Shown here one piece after another: positions 11,444-35,028 of a DNA stretch of 36,194 nt. How positions within the stretch are numbered: position 1 is the stretch's first letter; every line of letters begins with the position of its first letter. Below the pieces are notes generated by a model that was not told the DNA's origin, did not search any database, and saw only the letters and a program-made list of their open reading frames with translations. The position numbers and the translations under genes were made by a program. The stretch lies in the IMG/VR virus record IMGVR_UViG_3300043409_000255, positions 1 to 36,194 of that record; one strand, written 5' to 3'. This DNA comes from a virus.

Positions 11444-11595
11444 AACACATATCAGAAATACTTAAAAAATTAACCGAAGAGTTAAAACTTGATAATGACA
11501 ATTGGGAGAAAAAAGAAAATGGAAGATCAATTTTACCAACAAGTGATGCAGGAACTACACGAAATACAAACGAAACAACAGGAGATGCTAAATGA
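11434..11595 (+). CDS. Small helical protein, 53 aa
   Basis: Begins MALEHISEILKKLTEELKLD and is a likely amphipathic helix for ~30 residues, then a polar Ser/Thr/Asn-rich tail. It overlaps the end of the membrane-protein gene. The second half is read in a different frame by another possible 28-codon gene (11519-11605) that looks more protein-like, so the tail here may just reflect that overlap. Confidence 0.5.
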   Translation: MALEHISEILKKLTEELKLDNDNWEKKENGRSILPTSDAGTTRNTNETTGDAK

Positions 11596-11605
11596 GCGTT
11601 CATAA
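11519..11605 (+). CDS. Possible 28-aa coiled-coil peptide
   Basis: MEDQFYQQVMQELHEIQTKQ then QEMLNERS: a regular amphipathic helix, unlike the low-complexity reading of the overlapping frame. GGGAG lies 11 nt before the ATG. It overlaps the start of the ERF gene by 14 nt. Real coding is plausible but unproven. Confidence 0.4.
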   Translation: MEDQFYQQVMQELHEIQTKQQEMLNERS

Positions 11606-12131
11606 GAAACTAATGCAAGCTAGACTTGCTTTGCAAAATACAGAACTTAAAAAGTCTGGCAAGAATAAGTTTGCTGGATACCAATATTTTGAGTTAGGTG
11701 ACTTTTTACCTGTTATTCAAACTATATGTAATGATGTGGGTCTCTGTGGAACTGTTACATTTTATACAGATATTGCTATTTTAACTATAACTGACATGGA
11801 TGATACGTCACAGTTTATTGAGTTTAAATGCCCTATGTCTTCAGCAGCTTTAAAAGGATGCCATGAAGTGCAAAATTTAGGTGCAGTTCAAACCTACTTA
11901 AGACGTTATTTATGGACTAATGCTTTTGAAATTGTAGAGCATGACGCAATTGACTCTGCTAAACCTGTAGAAGTTGAAGATACTATTACAGAAGAGCAGT
12001 TAGAAATTGCCAAGAATAACTTAGAAGAAGCTGCTAAACGTGGTGAACTTAAACAAGCATTTTTTAAATTAACACCAAATGCTCAAGAAAAACTACGTGA
12101 GTATGCTAACGAACTTAAGAAGTCTGCATGA
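11592..12131 (+). CDS. erf: ERF-family single-strand annealing recombinase
   Basis: 179 residues. MSVHKKLMQARLALQ, SGKNKFAGYQYFELGDFLPV and the later EVQNLGAVQTYLRRYLW are the conserved blocks of the ERF superfamily, ring-forming annealing proteins (P22 Erf-like) used for phage recombination and genome circularisation. The C-terminal ~50 residues are a charged helical tail. It overlaps the exonuclease gene as ATGA, making an exonuclease/annealase pair. ATG 11592 is preceded by ACAGGAG. Confidence 0.9.
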   Translation: MSVHKKLMQARLALQNTELKKSGKNKFAGYQYFELGDFLPVIQTICNDVGLCGTVTFYTDIAILTITDMDDTSQFIEFKCPMSSAALKGCHEVQNLGAVQTYLRRYLWTNAFEIVEHDAIDSAKPVEVEDTITEEQLEIAKNNLEEAAKRGELKQAFFKLTPNAQEKLREYANELKKSA

Positions 12132-12676
12132 GTCATTTAAAGGATAATAGGCGTCATAACGTCATTACAGCTAGTACTGCATGGTCGGCTGTATATGAGA
12201 GACAAAAGTTATGGCGTCAAATGACTTTACGTGAAGCACCATTTGAAGGTAATGAGATGACTGAGTACGGTAATATTCATGAGGCTATTGCATTATCTGC
12301 TTTGGAAAAAGAGTTTGATGACATTGTAGAGCCTGGTAATAAGTTTGTATTGCATGACAAATTACCGTTTGGTGCAAGTCCGGATGGGTATTATGATGGC
12401 AATGTTATTGAGATAAAATGTCCGTATTCTCAGGAAGTATATAAAGAGATACCTGAACGCTATTACTTTCAAATGCAAATGCAAATGGAAGTATGTAAAA
12501 TGCCTCATGCGTATTTTTATATATGGACACCAAATGAAACAAAGATACAGGTAGTAAACAGAAGTAAGGAATGGCTTGAATGGTATACGCCATTAGCGCT
12601 AGAGTTTATAAAATATGTTGAAGATGACATAGAACCTAAACGCTGGACTAAGAAACCAATTTTTAATAAGGAGTAA
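12128..12676 (+). CDS. YqaJ-like (lambda-type) recombination exonuclease
   Basis: 182 residues. Active-site pattern of the YqaJ PD-(D/E)XK group: GNIHE at 49-53, SPDG with Asp 86, EIKCP with Glu 95 and Lys 97, and the QMQMQME helix at 115-121. It would resect duplex ends to make single strands for the ERF annealase encoded just before it. It ends 3 nt before the SSB-like gene. Length is close to other phage YqaJ exonucleases. Confidence 0.9.
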   Translation: MSHLKDNRRHNVITASTAWSAVYERQKLWRQMTLREAPFEGNEMTEYGNIHEAIALSALEKEFDDIVEPGNKFVLHDKLPFGASPDGYYDGNVIEIKCPYSQEVYKEIPERYYFQMQMQMEVCKMPHAYFYIWTPNETKIQVVNRSKEWLEWYTPLALEFIKYVEDDIEPKRWTKKPIFNKE

Positions 12677-12679
12677 AGT

Positions 12680-12922
12680 ATGGCACAGTATGACAATACA
12701 AACACTTTTGCATTATTTAAGAACGATCAAGGCGATAACCCAAAAAGACCTAACTACACAGGCAATATGAATGTAGATGGTATTGAGTTTCGTATTAGTG
12801 GCTGGATAAGAGAAAGTGCTAATGGTAAGTTTATTTCAGGTACAGTTCAATTAAAAGAACCTAAAGCTGAAACAAGAAGTGGACCTGCTGTTGAAGGTGC
12901 AGATGAGGATGTTCCTTTTTAG
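12680..12922 (+). CDS. SSB-like single-strand DNA-binding protein, 80 aa
   Basis: Begins MAQYDNTNTFALFKNDQGDN and continues RPNYTGNMNVDGIEFRISGW, a β-rich core followed by GKFISGTVQLK. The C-terminus is an acidic tail ending GADEDVPF, which is almost the protein-binding tip of bacterial SSB (D-D-x-P-F). With an annealase and exonuclease upstream, a small ssDNA-binding or SSB-mimic role fits. The core resembles short phage proteins of unknown function, so the OB-fold call is inference. Good GGAG site before ATG 12680. Confidence 0.6.
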   Translation: MAQYDNTNTFALFKNDQGDNPKRPNYTGNMNVDGIEFRISGWIRESANGKFISGTVQLKEPKAETRSGPAVEGADEDVPF

Positions 12923-12930
12923 GAGCATCC
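12907..12930. terminator. Hairpin between the convergent SSB-like and pqqA genes
   Basis: GGATGTTCC (12907-12915), loop TTTTTA, GGAGCATCC (12922-12930): a 9-bp stem with one mismatch that includes the last codons of the SSB-like gene. Neither side has a T-run directly after it, so it may be a weak bidirectional terminator or an RNA-stabilising hairpin. Confidence 0.45.
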
Positions 12931-12945
12931 CCAAACGCATAACAA

Positions 12946-13017
12946 TTACTTGTTCATTACGTACATAGTTACTTCGAAGCCAAAACGCATTTCAGTAGCT
13001 GCTGGAGTTGTCCACAT
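12946..13017 (-). CDS. pqqA: PqqA, precursor peptide of the PQQ cofactor
   Basis: A 23-residue peptide: MWTTPAATEMRFGFE (1-15) then VTMYVMNK (16-23). It has the length and pattern of γ/β-proteobacterial PqqA (MW..P...(D/E)(L/M)R.GFEVT(M/L)Y), with Glu 15 and Tyr 19 at the exact positions that PqqE joins to build pyrroloquinoline quinone. AAGGA lies 8 nt before ATG 13017 and a perfect TATAAT is at 13060-13055, giving a ~30-nt leader. It runs against the surrounding early operon and no pqqB-E genes are present, so host enzymes would process it. PQQ serves methanol dehydrogenase, pointing to a methylotrophic host and an auxiliary metabolic gene. The gene is too short for usual callers. Confidence 0.9.
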   Translation of the reverse strand: MWTTPAATEMRFGFEVTMYVMNK

Positions 13018-13054
13018 AATAAGTGTCCTTTTAAAATGTTAATTAAATGTTGCA

Positions 13055-13060
13055 ATTATA
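13055..13060 (-). promoter_or_regulatory. Candidate -10 box for pqqA
   Basis: Minus-strand TATAAT, with an overlapping GATAAT 5 bp upstream. No -35 hexamer is recognisable at 16-18 bp; the region above is AT-rich. The start would be about 13048, 31 nt before the pqqA ATG. The 183-bp gap 12923-13105 is thus explained by pqqA, its leader and a hairpin. Confidence 0.5.
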
Positions 13061-13105: not shown

Positions 13106-13393
13106 ATGCCTAATATATTATTAAGTTTAGAGTCTAAAAAGTCTTTAAGAAACGAATTAGTATCAACACCTGAGGGTAGGTTATTTATTGCTATATTAAC
13201 TCACGCACTACTTGACGTTATAGAAAAGAGAGATTACCATACTAGGCGTACAGCATTAAATTGGTTTTTAGTTAAACATAACCCTATGAGAGACTTTTGT
13301 TTACTTCTTGCTGAAATTGATAGAGAATACGTTATACGTATGATAAAGAATAAAGTAGGTATGACAGAATACGAGAAATTAAATGGACATTAA
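13106..13393 (+). CDS. Conserved-type phage protein, 95 aa
   Basis: Helical protein; the middle reads TRRTALNWFLVKHNPMRDFC followed by LLLAEIDREYVIRMI. A pattern of 'A..WFL......F...C.LA.ID..YVR..I' is shared with many small phage proteins of unknown function. The ribosome site is weak (AAAGAAAA). It follows the pqqA gap and overlaps the SleB-like gene by 11 nt. No function assigned. Confidence 0.7.
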   Translation: MPNILLSLESKKSLRNELVSTPEGRLFIAILTHALLDVIEKRDYHTRRTALNWFLVKHNPMRDFCLLLAEIDREYVIRMIKNKVGMTEYEKLNGH

Positions 13394-27379: not shown

Positions 27380-28531
27380 TTATTTAAAATATGGGCCAAC
27401 CATCCAGGTGACTACTGAATATCTTACCCCTTTAGTGATAGGTTCAACGCCATGAACCATGAATGAAGGAAATACTATTACATCCCCTTTTTCTTGTGGA
27501 GGATATATCTTTTCATGGCTATTTATAATATAAAACTTACCGCCCTCAAAGTCATCATTAAGAATAGCTAGTGCAGTCAATTTTCTTGTTTCATTTCCGT
27601 GCTGGTGAAATGTGTCTACATGAGCCTCATATTTACCATTAGGTTCATACATTAAAAACTCAGCTTGGTTGGAATGTGTAATATTATATTGCCAATATTG
27701 ATGGTTTATACTTAAAGCGCATGATGTCAATGTTGCTCCTATGCCAGCATGTAATGGCAATTGAAGTCTTTGAACGTTTCTAATATCTAAATTAATATTA
27801 TTTTTAAGATCACGACCTTCGCCAATAAACGGCAGTTCTTTTTCGACTTCAGGCTTTGAATATTCTTTAATAAGTGTGTTACTAAAGCCATCTGATATAG
27901 CTTTTTTCATTACATAACATATATCTAATTGTTGAGGTTGAGATACATTATTAATTGTTTTACTTAAACCTAAAGACTCACGCTTATCATACTTCCATTC
28001 AGCATGAGGGCCATTTTGATCTACGTAATGTAAGAATACTTGGGCTTGCCATTTTCCCTCAAAGTAAGGTTCACGCCAATGCCATTTGTCCATGCCACGA
28101 TACATAACAGCATCACCAACATCCATTTCAATTTTTGTGCCATTGGACTTATCTTCATTGTCTCCCATGTAAATAGACCATATACCACCTTCAAAACCTA
28201 ATGTAATAGTTGCCGATATTTCGCAAGCTGGTCTATCTCTATGGTTTTTTAATTCTTCTCCATGCTGACTATAAAGTCTTGCATAAGAGTAAGTAGAATA
28301 TAGTTTTAAACCACTAGCATTTTCAAAGTGTGGTAATAATTGTTCTAATAGACTATCAAATACTTCTGAACCATGTACTGCATCTGATAATGGGCATTGT
28401 TCATCTTTAACTGTTTTATTTTCATTAACTAAACGCTTTAATTCATCTGTTAATTGTTGGCAATTAGCTTTGTCTAAAAAGTTTTTTAAGTGAACGTATT
28501 TATGATCTTGAAATTGTTTTATAGTATTCAT
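27380..28531 (-). CDS. 2-oxoglutarate/Fe(II) oxygenase with two possible domains
   Basis: 383 residues. The C-terminal domain has a complete 2OG-Fe(II) site: His 304/Asp 306 in YEAHVDTFH, His 360 in VFPSFMVHG and Arg 370 in KGVRYSVV. The N-terminal half has a second set: His 97/Asp 99 in LKNHRDRP, His 151 in DKWHWREP and Lys 160. Two tandem DSBH domains are likely. These P4H-like enzymes hydroxylate proteins, lipids or sugars; phage members are common in aquatic phages. It is placed between tail genes. A TGTTATAAT promoter would start transcription at the ATG. Confidence 0.85.
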   Translation of the reverse strand: MNTIKQFQDHKYVHLKNFLDKANCQQLTDELKRLVNENKTVKDEQCPLSDAVHGSEVFDSLLEQLLPHFENASGLKLYSTYSYARLYSQHGEELKNHRDRPACEISATITLGFEGGIWSIYMGDNEDKSNGTKIEMDVGDAVMYRGMDKWHWREPYFEGKWQAQVFLHYVDQNGPHAEWKYDKRESLGLSKTINNVSQPQQLDICYVMKKAISDGFSNTLIKEYSKPEVEKELPFIGEGRDLKNNINLDIRNVQRLQLPLHAGIGATLTSCALSINHQYWQYNITHSNQAEFLMYEPNGKYEAHVDTFHQHGNETRKLTALAILNDDFEGGKFYIINSHEKIYPPQEKGDVIVFPSFMVHGVEPITKGVRYSVVTWMVGPYFK

Positions 28532-31201: not shown

Positions 31202-31810
31202 TTATCTTGGTGTTACGCTTAGTGAAGTGTATGGGTATGTTTGGCCCAAGTCGCTTGTTTTAATGTTTGCAATTGCTCTGTCATATAAAGATGACCATGT
31301 TTGAATACGACCATCATTCATCAAATATGGTTCTGCTTCTGCTAGAGTTGCATATAATAAAGCGTCTGGGTAATTAGCTAGGAATAAATTACTAGCAGTT
31401 GTTGTTGATATAAATGTAGGTTGAGAGTAATAAAGTATTTGTACAGTTTGGTTACCATTGGGTTGCGGTGCAAACTGAAACTCTGAACCTAACATTGTAA
31501 AATAAAACGGTCTTCCTGATAATGTCGTTTGAAAGTTTTTAAAGAATAAGTCTGGTGACTGATACTCTAAAATAACAGGAGGGTTACCTTGTAAATGTAT
31601 TTCCCTTACCTCTAACATATCTGCAGGTATAGATACTGTATTGTCTACCATAGTAGTTGTAGCTACTTTTAGCATCTTTTCAGTTCTTAAGTCACGTGAC
31701 ATACGAGTCTGTGCTAACTGAATAAAGTCAGGTATGACGTTTGTTAAGTCTGTTCTAGCTAGGTAATTTTCTACCGTAGATACAAACGTTGTATAGTTAG
31801 TTAATGCCAT
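31202..31810 (-). CDS. Head-tail adaptor protein (P22 gp4 / T7 gp11-like)
   Basis: 202 residues. FVSTVENYLARTDLTNVIPD and LAQTRMSRDLRTEKML are the helical start, and the remainder (VSIPADMLEVREIHLQG, GSEFQFAPQPNGNQTVQILYY) is the typical phage adaptor pattern. It would form a 12-mer under the portal. It overlaps the GT-B gene by 14 nt. Confidence 0.8.
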   Translation of the reverse strand: MALTNYTTFVSTVENYLARTDLTNVIPDFIQLAQTRMSRDLRTEKMLKVATTTMVDNTVSIPADMLEVREIHLQGNPPVILEYQSPDLFFKNFQTTLSGRPFYFTMLGSEFQFAPQPNGNQTVQILYYSQPTFISTTTASNLFLANYPDALLYATLAEAEPYLMNDGRIQTWSSLYDRAIANIKTSDLGQTYPYTSLSVTPR

Positions 31811-32510
31811 CTAATTGTCCTTTTAGTCTATCCCAGCACTTGTCCATTTCGCTCATGTGCCATTCTGCAGCAGCTAATGAACGTAACCAGTCGTGCCTAT
31901 CTGGATAATTTAAGTTTTCTATATCTGTAATGCTATTTGAAATTGGTTTTGCAGGACTATGATCTGATACGATCACAGGTACTCCATAAAGGCTTGCTTC
32001 TACATCTGCAACACTACCAAAACTTACTATTACGTGAGCTTTTTCTAATGCTTTCTTAAAGTCACCTTCGCCTTTACGCTTAATGATAACTTTTCTTTTT
32101 GTATGCTTTCTAATTTCTTCTATGGTTGTGTCTAACCAGCAAGAAGCATTGTAAATGTATGATACTTTATCTGCTGGAGGCAAAATAACTACATGTTCAC
32201 CTGATCTATAGTCTTTTGCTTCAGGAATATCTCTAATAGATGATCGCCAGTCTGTACAATGGTAGTTATTTACACAGAACCTAGCCCATTCTAAGCCAGA
32301 TGACCTATGAAAGTAACCATGGTCTATCAGAATGTAAGGTATATTTTGTTCTCTACAAACTATTTGTATTTTATCTGCGCCATGTAAATTACCTACTACG
32401 ACTGGAATTGACTTACCATCCCATTCTCTTGTTAAAACACCCTTACAATGCTTTTGCAGGCGTTTTAAGACGTTATCTCTGCGTTCTATGCCACTCAGTA
32501 TTAACTGCAT
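31797..32510 (-). CDS. Glycosyltransferase-like protein (GT-B / capsule-type)
   Basis: 237 residues. ADKIQIVCREQNIPYILIDH, KVIIKRKGEGDFKKALEKAH and VIVSFGSVADVEASLYGVPV then IVSDHSP form the C-terminal half of a GT-B fold, similar to capsular polysaccharide synthesis proteins. It overlaps the GT9-like gene by 38 nt. Substrate unknown; part of the sugar-modification island. Confidence 0.65.
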   Translation of the reverse strand: MQLILSGIERRDNVLKRLQKHCKGVLTREWDGKSIPVVVGNLHGADKIQIVCREQNIPYILIDHGYFHRSSGLEWARFCVNNYHCTDWRSSIRDIPEAKDYRSGEHVVILPPADKVSYIYNASCWLDTTIEEIRKHTKRKVIIKRKGEGDFKKALEKAHVIVSFGSVADVEASLYGVPVIVSDHSPAKPISNSITDIENLNYPDRHDWLRSLAAAEWHMSEMDKCWDRLKGQLDGIN

Positions 32511-33228
32511 CTAAAACCTGCTCTACGGTTATTGTTTTGCTTTTTAAAAGGCAATGTTGACACACGCTATCATAAGTCCCACATGGCTCTGAACCGTCAT
32601 GTATATTTCTATGGGTATCATATCCTAAATGTCTCGGTGAAGTAAACCCTGTCCATATCACTACGGAAGGTATGCCTAAGGCTGCTGCTGCATGATGTAA
32701 GCCACCATCTGTCCCTACAAAAACACTAGCTTTGTTTAGTATAGCTAATGCTTCCCTGAATGTTTTTGTTTCTATCCATTTTGTATATTTTTTAGCAGTA
32801 CAATCACCTACTTGTTTCCAAGGTAAGTCATGTTTTACTAATTCATCCCACTTATCCCATGCTTTGTTTACAGTATGGATAAATGTACGCTTTACATTAG
32901 GCTCTATAAGTATAAAAGGTTCTTTTACTTTCTTATCAGCCCATATCTTTTCGTCTTTAGATAAGTATATTTCACCAGGTTTAGGCTTATAGTTATCATT
33001 AAAGACTAAATGTCCGTCTTTAGATCCTTTTAGATAAGGTCTGTGGTTAGGATAATTCTTTACCCATACAACATCTGTATCTGAGTTAGATGCCATGCGA
33101 GGGTTATTAGCAAATACTTGGTGATCGTAATACATACTTACACCATTGCCAATTTTTACTTTCTTACCAGCCTTTTCGTTCTCTTCTTTGACTTCTGCTG
33201 AAGCCATGATCCAATCACCTAGACCCAT
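32473..33228 (-). CDS. GT9 (heptosyltransferase-like) glycosyltransferase
   Basis: 251 residues. FVGTDGGLHHAAAALGIPSV followed by VIWTGFTSPRHLGY is the ADP-heptose:LPS heptosyltransferase (GT9) nucleotide-sugar site. The N-terminal half is shorter than in bacterial WaaC/WaaF (~320-350), so the acceptor domain is reduced. It would move a sugar to LPS-like or virion glycans. GAGG precedes ATG 33228. Confidence 0.75.
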   Translation of the reverse strand: MGLGDWIMASAEVKEENEKAGKKVKIGNGVSMYYDHQVFANNPRMASNSDTDVVWVKNYPNHRPYLKGSKDGHLVFNDNYKPKPGEIYLSKDEKIWADKKVKEPFILIEPNVKRTFIHTVNKAWDKWDELVKHDLPWKQVGDCTAKKYTKWIETKTFREALAILNKASVFVGTDGGLHHAAAALGIPSVVIWTGFTSPRHLGYDTHRNIHDGSEPCGTYDSVCQHCLLKSKTITVEQVLDAVNTEWHRTQR

Positions 33229-33700
33229 TGCTAACCTCTACGATATATTGTTTAGGCTCTATTTCCTCTTTGTCTATTACAAAGTATTTAGTAAGTTCAG
33301 TTCGCCACCATTTATGATCTTTAACGATCAAGTGTGCATTACGACCATCTGGCAATGACTTACCAGCTTTAACTGTACTAATAATGAATAGTCCTTCTTT
33401 TTTCATGCAACGCTTAATATCTTGTAAAACATTATCTAGTAATGTAGGTTCTATATGTTCTAATACATCACCACAAAATACAAAGTCATGTGGCTCATTG
33501 TTGTTTTCTAAACCAAATATACAAGGATCATAATTAGCAATAGGCCTACCTAATTCAGCTTCTAAACTACGCTTGCCACATCCATAGTCTAATATGTCTT
33601 CATGATGTTCAACTCTATCAGCCCACTTCCATGCTGATAAGCCATAAATACCTTCATGCAGTTTCTTTTGCTGATCTAAATATTCTGGTGTAATGAGCAT
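33215..33700 (-). CDS. SAM-dependent class I methyltransferase
   Basis: 161 residues. Motif I ILDYGCGKRSLEAELG, post-I YDPCIFG, DFVFCGDVLEHIEPTLLDNV (motif IV/V) and the strand GLFIISTVKAG. It resembles Methyltransf_23 proteins of sugar-modification clusters. The GxGxG loop is unusual (YGCGKRS). Probably methylates a glycan or small product. One-base overlap with the TPR gene. Confidence 0.75.
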   Translation of the reverse strand: MLITPEYLDQQKKLHEGIYGLSAWKWADRVEHHEDILDYGCGKRSLEAELGRPIANYDPCIFGLENNNEPHDFVFCGDVLEHIEPTLLDNVLQDIKRCMKKEGLFIISTVKAGKSLPDGRNAHLIVKDHKWWRTELTKYFVIDKEEIEPKQYIVEVSNGSR

Positions 33701-35028
33701 TACAATTGTGTAATAACGCTATCGTATACCTCTGTCCATGATCTTTTATCTTGATACATAAGTCTCATAGAACGATACCAAGGCATACTAGGTTGAGCAT
33801 AACGCCATTGATGATATTCAGGTACTAAGCACCATGTTTTAACACCTAGTGCTGCTGAAGCATTTAATGCAGTTGTATTAGGGCCAAGTACTAAGTCACA
33901 TTCTGCTAGTAATGCAGCCGTGTCATCATAGTCATTAGACTGTGTGGCCCATGGGAAATAATGTACGCCATCTATTTTTTCAGTAGGCTTGTAGTCTAAA
34001 CTTACTATTGCATAGTCTTTTAGTTTAACTAGCTTTTCAATACATTCTTTTGGTATCTCACGGCCTTTAGAATTAGTTTGTTTAATGCCACCATGAGTCG
34101 TGATACCTATAACTTTCTTACCCCATGAGTCAAATAAAGCACGCCACATAACACGTCTTGCAGGATCTGCTACTAAGTATGGAGTTCCTGGGAAGTCTTT
34201 ATTATGATGCCTAAAGAATTCAGGAAGACCACCTAAACCACAGCGATAGTCAAATGTTTTATCAGCTATCCATCTCGGATGCTCTTCTCTACGAGTGCCA
34301 TGCACTTCAGCTTGTGGGAAGCTACGTTTAAATAAGTTTTCTAGTTTAGGGTCGCAGTCTACATATACTTTTTTACTAACTGATATAGCATCTGGAATAC
34401 ATGAGCCAAAGAATATTTCATCACCTAGGCCTTGTTCGCCATAGATAATAACTGTTTTATCTTTAGTGCCATCCCATCTTACTTCGTCACCATATACCCA
34501 TTCTTTACGGAATTTGCCACCTAGTGACTTATCCCATTGTTTCCAGCCTTCATCCCATCTTCCTGTAGCAAAATAGCAATGAGCTAAATTCATTTGAGCA
34601 TTGATCTCACTAGGATCACATTCTAAAGCCATGTTAGCTGACTTCTCTGCGTCAGCCCATCTTGATGTTTGTACCAATGATGCTGAAGCATTAGCATAAG
34701 CTAGTGCATAAGTAGGATCTAATTCTGCTGACTTTAAAAAGTATTTAAGTGCGTCTTCAAAGTTATCCATCTCATGGCATGCTTTACCCAAAGATGTCCA
34801 TATAACTTTATTGGTAGGAGCTTCTTGTAATGCTCTACGATACATTTGGTAAGCAATAGCTGGTTTATCAGCCATAAGCCAAACATAACCTAAGAAGTTT
34901 AATGCCATAGCATTGTTAGGATATAGGTCTAATACCTCATAAATAAGAGGCATAGCAGTATCAAACTCATTCTTTTGTAAGAGTTCGTGTATTGCTAATA
35001 GTACGTCTTTTAATTCGTTTTGGTCCAT
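33700..35028 (-). CDS. TPR protein fused to a GT9-like glycosyltransferase domain
   Basis: 442 residues. Residues ~1-165 are tetratricopeptide repeats (NAMALNFLGYVWLMADKPAI, NKVIWTSLGKACHEMDNFED, YALAYANASASLVQTSRWAD, NAQMNLAHCYFATGRWDEGW). Residues ~190-442 resemble a GT-B domain (IIYGEQGLGDEIFFGS, LVLGPNTTALNASAALGVKT). TPR-GT fusions modify proteins or glycans. This is the first large gene of the island and may modify virion proteins. Confidence 0.75.
   Translation of the reverse strand: MDQNELKDVLLAIHELLQKNEFDTAMPLIYEVLDLYPNNAMALNFLGYVWLMADKPAIAYQMYRRALQEAPTNKVIWTSLGKACHEMDNFEDALKYFLKSAELDPTYALAYANASASLVQTSRWADAEKSANMALECDPSEINAQMNLAHCYFATGRWDEGWKQWDKSLGGKFRKEWVYGDEVRWDGTKDKTVIIYGEQGLGDEIFFGSCIPDAISVSKKVYVDCDPKLENLFKRSFPQAEVHGTRREEHPRWIADKTFDYRCGLGGLPEFFRHHNKDFPGTPYLVADPARRVMWRALFDSWGKKVIGITTHGGIKQTNSKGREIPKECIEKLVKLKDYAIVSLDYKPTEKIDGVHYFPWATQSNDYDDTAALLAECDLVLGPNTTALNASAALGVKTWCLVPEYHQWRYAQPSMPWYRSMRLMYQDKRSWTEVYDSVITQL

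Follow-up and report, generated by a model that had tools for sequence, protein, structure and literature searches.

The window analysed here, a 36,194-nt stretch of viral DNA (IMG/VR record IMGVR_UViG_3300043409_000255, positions 1 to 36,194), carries on its minus strand, at positions 12946-13017, a gene for PqqA, the precursor peptide of PQQ (MWTTPAATEMRFGFEVTMYVMNK). The assignment is supported by matches to PF08042 and TIGR02107, by identity of the peptide to that of Methylophilaceae, and by a low dN/dS ratio (w). The E-value of the PF08042 match, the TIGR02107 score, and synteny in all 76 relatives of sufficient length establish that this is a genuine PqqA-family gene and not a chance open reading frame (ORF).

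The ORF extends from position 13017 to 12946 and comprises 23 codons followed by TAA. A Shine-Dalgarno (SD) motif, AAGGA, lies at 13026-13030 (minus strand), with the ATG 8 nt downstream, and an exact TATAAT at 13055-13060 (minus strand), ~37 nt upstream of the ATG, forms the -10-like box of a putative promoter belonging to the gene itself. No clear -35 box was found, and a promoter scan of the minus strand gave no 9/12 match. A hairpin 3' of the stop codon (12904-12933, minus strand; -16.4 kcal/mol, z = -4.2) is a possible transcript end; it lacks a U-tract, and its stem extends into the 3' end of the single-strand DNA-binding protein gene on the opposite strand. The Pfam PqqA profile PF08042 scored 38.1 bits in the whole-record search (E = 1e-10) and 40.3 bits on the peptide alone (cut-off 21.1), and the NCBIfam equivalog TIGR02107 scored 38.8 bits (cut-off 20). 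Both residues of the E-x3-Y pair, Glu15 and Tyr19, are present. A preliminary description, made without database searches, had reported the 23-codon minus-strand frame, its AAGGA 8 nt before the ATG, and the perfect TATAAT, all of which held exactly; its identification of the product as PqqA with Glu15 and Tyr19 also held, with both profiles above their cut-offs. No PHROGs family matches PqqA, which is in part why phage annotators overlook the gene.

The gene is situated between a recombination module and more rightward genes, antisense to both. The module consists of an ERF single-strand annealing protein (11592-12131, plus strand; PF04404, 7.7e-10), a YqaJ/RecE-like exonuclease (12128-12676, plus strand; PF09588, 4.1e-14), and the single-strand DNA-binding protein, SSB (12680-12922, plus strand; phrog_18154, 5.8e-15). 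The other flank is a gene (13106-13393, plus strand) for which Pfam and PHROG profile searches were negative. The window also encodes a terminase, portal, helicase, and lysozyme, and since pqqA occurs in complete isolate genomes as well, its carrier is a bona fide phage rather than host contamination. The window lineage has 33% of its genes in common with the OM43 phage Venkman. Amid the structural genes, a glycosyltransferase/methyltransferase/TPR gene group and a 2OG-Fe(II) oxygenase were observed (31797-35028 and 27380-28531, minus strand).

Conservation of the gene was assessed by querying IMG/VR with the adjoining exonuclease instead of PqqA, yielding 80 loci at 63-97% identity. The gene is kept at the same antisense position in 76 of these, which are all of the sufficiently long ones, while the remaining four stop before or around the pqqA position. 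The distance from exonuclease to pqqA in these relatives is 246-476 nt, with a single outlier at 1455 nt. The loci were thus not selected by the PqqA motif, but the recogniser used to call the gene does demand a relaxed version of that motif. For the window lineage, 36 distinct DNA versions give a dS of 0.56 and a dN of 0.022 (w = 0.04), compared with w = 0.068 for pqqA of the P19250A lineage and 0.082 for host pqqA genes. Such a low ratio together with wide synonymous divergence shows that the peptide of the window lineage is under strong purifying selection. Close relatives (L255, L258, L265, and L267) preserve the -10 box together with the sequence around it. The 18-nt upstream flank is identical in two loci with very different exonucleases (L250, 97%; L049, 67%) and differs from that of the window; across L250, L251, L049, and L306, compared with window positions 13018-13035, the type of pqqA flank is independent of exonuclease similarity. 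These flank types suggest, on sequence alone, cassette exchange among phages.

Viral pqqA genes were detected with pattern scans and neighbor-anchored scans, and with tblastn for phage records. Among 50,697 phage records, tblastn matched P19250A, Venkman, MEP301, MEP401, MEP402, four Melnitz isolates, and one environmental phage; the only other match was a mislabelled Acinetobacter chromosome (CAKLQF020000010.1, "Acinetobacter phage MD-2021a"), which was rejected as a phage because it looks like a bacterial contig and includes a complete pqqABCDE operon. Every cultured methylophage record found in the collection (P19250A, Venkman, MEP301, MEP401/402, Melnitz) therefore contains pqqA, a statement limited to this collection, where MEP431-434, Venkman EXVC038S, and further methylophages known by name could not be located. 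In the isolate records the gene is either unannotated or masked by a hypothetical CDS on the opposite strand. Two such antisense CDSs (MelnitzEXVC044M_152, L008:3961-4056; UOF77531.1, L003:2067-2195) are probably spurious and conceal pqqA.

A pattern scan of IMG/VR identified at least 120 contigs with pqqA, and pattern and anchored searches together collected 273 viral loci, whose DNA occurs in 191 distinct versions encoding 70 peptides. Some of these loci possibly come from the same contig, and the pattern-based counts presuppose the core motif. An SD-like motif precedes all 273 copies. Nine residues (M1, W2, P5, R11, G13, F14, E15, T17, and Y19) are invariant across 56 viral peptide types, an invariance partly forced by the search pattern. 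One viral record (G022:C1, that of L304) contains two pqqA matches (1948-2004 and 40838-40894). Outside the Methylophilaceae type, a pattern for Methylobacterium-type PqqA matched a single viral contig (L329:2718-2804, plus strand; MKWSAPIVQEVCVGMEVTSYESAEIDTFN), which also carries a phage DNA polymerase homolog (phrog_11778) and may represent an alphaproteobacterial case of phage pqqA. A looser pattern of this type matched zero viral contigs, and tblastn with an approximate Methylobacterium-type query gave no convincing phage match. Plasmid pqqA genes are merely 59-74% identical and reside on large, mostly Burkholderiaceae replicons.

The 31 larger pqqA-carrying records fall into about 11 gene-content clusters, between which the location and orientation of pqqA differ. 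These differences suggest that the gene was probably acquired or exchanged repeatedly; there is no phylogeny-based count of independent acquisitions. Five Melnitz-type contigs (L346, L347, L351, L352, and L396) keep both flanks and lack a ~141-nt segment (L008:3933-4073) consisting of the promoter region and the ORF, forming what may be read as a natural presence/absence pair in which pqqA behaves as a cassette, an inference from sequence alone. Searches anchored on Melnitz and MEP401 returned many relatives without pqqA, many of the Melnitz-anchored ones distant; since some close relatives of both also lack it, the gene is not strictly required. Signals for separate transcription are found across the viral copies as well: exact TATAAT is enriched in 110 distinct upstream regions (46 versus 21 +/- 5 in shuffles), the excess is less marked for the full promoter score (34/110 versus 20 +/- 4), and downstream structure averages -14.5 kcal/mol (versus -8.4 in shuffles). 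In the absence of transcript data, the TATAAT enrichment and downstream structure suggest autonomous transcription.

On the host side, the window peptide matches, letter for letter, the PqqA found across many Methylophilaceae (OM43, Methylopumilus, and Methylotenera among them), and 140 of the 273 viral copies have an exact counterpart in a fetched host genome. The closest host DNA found differs from the window gene at 3 of 69 positions. From this peptide and the 33% gene kinship with Venkman, the host of the window virus is inferred, without direct observation, to be a methylotroph of the Methylophilaceae. Neither PqqE nor a PQQ-dependent alcohol (methanol) dehydrogenase was found in the window or in seven named phage genomes, and both were found in four Methylophilaceae genomes. 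The inferred host family thus has access to PQQ enzymes; for the virus itself such access is presumed, the actual host of the contig not having been observed. None of pqqB-E was detected near the fetched viral pqqA loci examined, the mislabelled Acinetobacter control excepted, and one or more of them lie near 31 of 120 host pqqA loci. Methylophilaceae are described as having 3-12 pqqA copies and a single pqqBCDE set (PMC4109929), and six genomes counted here have 1-12 copies. Many host copies beside one pqqBCDE set point to substrate dosage.

The gene is a homolog of a host metabolic gene and is under selection in phages, as expected of a phage auxiliary metabolic gene (AMG); an effect on host metabolism during infection is presumed, in the absence of expression or flux data. 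It most likely functions as a stand-alone AMG supplying substrate to host PqqD and PqqE, with expression, processing, metabolic benefit, and exact host all inferred. In the proposed mechanism, the phage would make the peptide from a small transcription unit of its own, PqqD of the host would present it, host PqqE would cross-link Glu15 to Tyr19, and host PqqB and PqqC with a protease would complete PQQ, which would load the PQQ-dependent methanol dehydrogenases of the host (XoxF/MxaF). In PQQ synthesis by PqqD, PqqE, PqqB, and PqqC, PqqA is consumed one for one. Because each PQQ uses up one PqqA, the peptide is the sole part of the pathway needed in bulk; the phage would provide only this part, and methanol oxidation, with its yield of energy and formaldehyde carbon, would continue as host gene expression declines. 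On this basis pqqA probably sustains host energy supply during infection, for which there are no transcript, peptide, proteomic, or mutant data. A bolder reading, also considered likely, is that pqqA belongs to the core genes of phages infecting Methylophilaceae, present as a movable, free-standing copy in at least about 11 unrelated freshwater and marine lineages because methanol-driven energy during infection is limited by how much PQQ precursor is available. Such a core gene would have escaped notice since 23-codon ORFs are skipped by gene callers.

Several other explanations were considered. The gene could be a piece of host DNA kept as an attachment site for integration, its ORF being incidental, as suggested by short host-like DNA in an intergenic gap with up to 66 of 69 nt identical to host copies. 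However, a tyrosine integrase (PF00589) was not detected in the window or in any of 30 further phage records with pqqA (serine integrases were outside the search; MEP301 has merely a resolvase N-terminal domain, PMC8024684), the full ORF and SD are kept despite wide synonymous divergence (dS 0.56 versus dN 0.02), and the gene occurs in unrelated phages at varied loci and in varied orientations, so that this explanation is all but excluded. Equally remote is a neutral passenger, recently captured from a host and without function. High similarity to host genes and patchy presence among close Melnitz relatives speak for it, but retention in all 76 sufficiently long, widely diverged relatives and dN/dS values of 0.04-0.07 in two separate lineages speak against it, and for the window lineage the selection test refutes it.

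The antisense orientation and the hairpin would also fit an RNA element, either an sRNA or an antisense to the recombination operon, in place of a peptide. This is very unlikely given that variation is concentrated at synonymous codon positions and that the same peptide appears in other contexts, in both orientations relative to its neighbors. A decoy peptide that floods PqqD/PqqE and thereby disturbs or redirects host PQQ synthesis is harder to dismiss: many small phage proteins are inhibitors, and sequence alone does not reveal whether the peptide serves as a substrate or competes as a decoy. If it were a decoy, loss or alteration of the cross-linked residues would be expected, whereas the window peptide matches native host PqqA exactly and all copies retain these residues and the E-x3-Y core; the decoy is for this reason considered unlikely, and substrate supply remains the preferred reading.

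Most of what the preliminary description inferred beyond the frame itself is supported by these data. Its methylotroph host is supported, as a member of the Methylophilaceae, by sequence evidence, as is the reliance on host PqqBCDE (PqqE was not found in the phages searched and is present in the host family); the separate acquisition it proposed is supported in the form of a mobile cassette. The physiological benefit during infection remains an inference, with no data from transcripts, peptides, or mutants. Relatives were checked for an outcome it named as refuting, loss of the frame or of Glu15/Tyr19, and the result was the opposite (76 of 76 retain them), as it was for the absence of a host PQQ pathway, at least for the inferred host family. 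The near-universality of pqqA in known methylophages was missed, and the question it left undecided, whether phage pqqA had been described, is answered by the Lake Baikal metagenomic T4-like phage VP_266, which has pqqA (PMC7678222). A 2026 paper also counts pqqA as one of the phosphorus-cycling genes encoded by viruses in reservoir sediments (PMC13188868), and no phage pqqA is mentioned in the papers describing Venkman, MEP301, MEP401/402, and Melnitz. The gene type is therefore known, while its breadth, autonomy, and omission from annotation appear to be undescribed (the literature search did not include subscription papers).

These results suggest that phages of methylotrophs, which are abundant hosts in freshwater and coastal waters, manipulate methanol oxidation through the smallest lever, a consumed cofactor precursor rather than an enzyme, and they make PQQ precursor limitation in infected and uninfected streamlined methylotrophs directly testable. 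In addition, pqqA can serve to mark the host of viral contigs that are still unassigned, and it illustrates how a near-universal gene can be missed when it falls below the length limit of gene callers and is absent from PHROGs.

Compared with known PqqA (PF08042, TIGR02107), the window gene shares the length, the MW-x2-P start, the R-F-G-F-E-V-T-M-Y core, and Glu15/Tyr19, but it is phage-borne, lies away from pqqBCDE, and has an SD, a -10 box, and a downstream hairpin of its own. It resembles the solitary pqqA genes of Methylophilaceae (PMC4109929) as a stand-alone extra copy, apart from pqqBCDE, of the same peptide, although those copies are chromosomal. VP_266 (PMC7678222) is likewise a predicted Methylophilaceae phage with a pqqA read as an AMG for methanol oxidation; there, however, the gene belongs to a T4-like phage and is accompanied by a methanol dehydrogenase of that phage and by further AMGs, whereas in the window, a 36-kb Venkman-type phage, pqqA is the only PQQ-related gene detected. 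Cyanophage psbA, a host gene of energy metabolism, is retained by most of the phages that infect one host group, and it sustains a rapidly consumed component. By analogy, pqqA may work similarly, with the difference that its product is not an enzyme or reaction-center protein but a 23-residue substrate peptide that is itself consumed.
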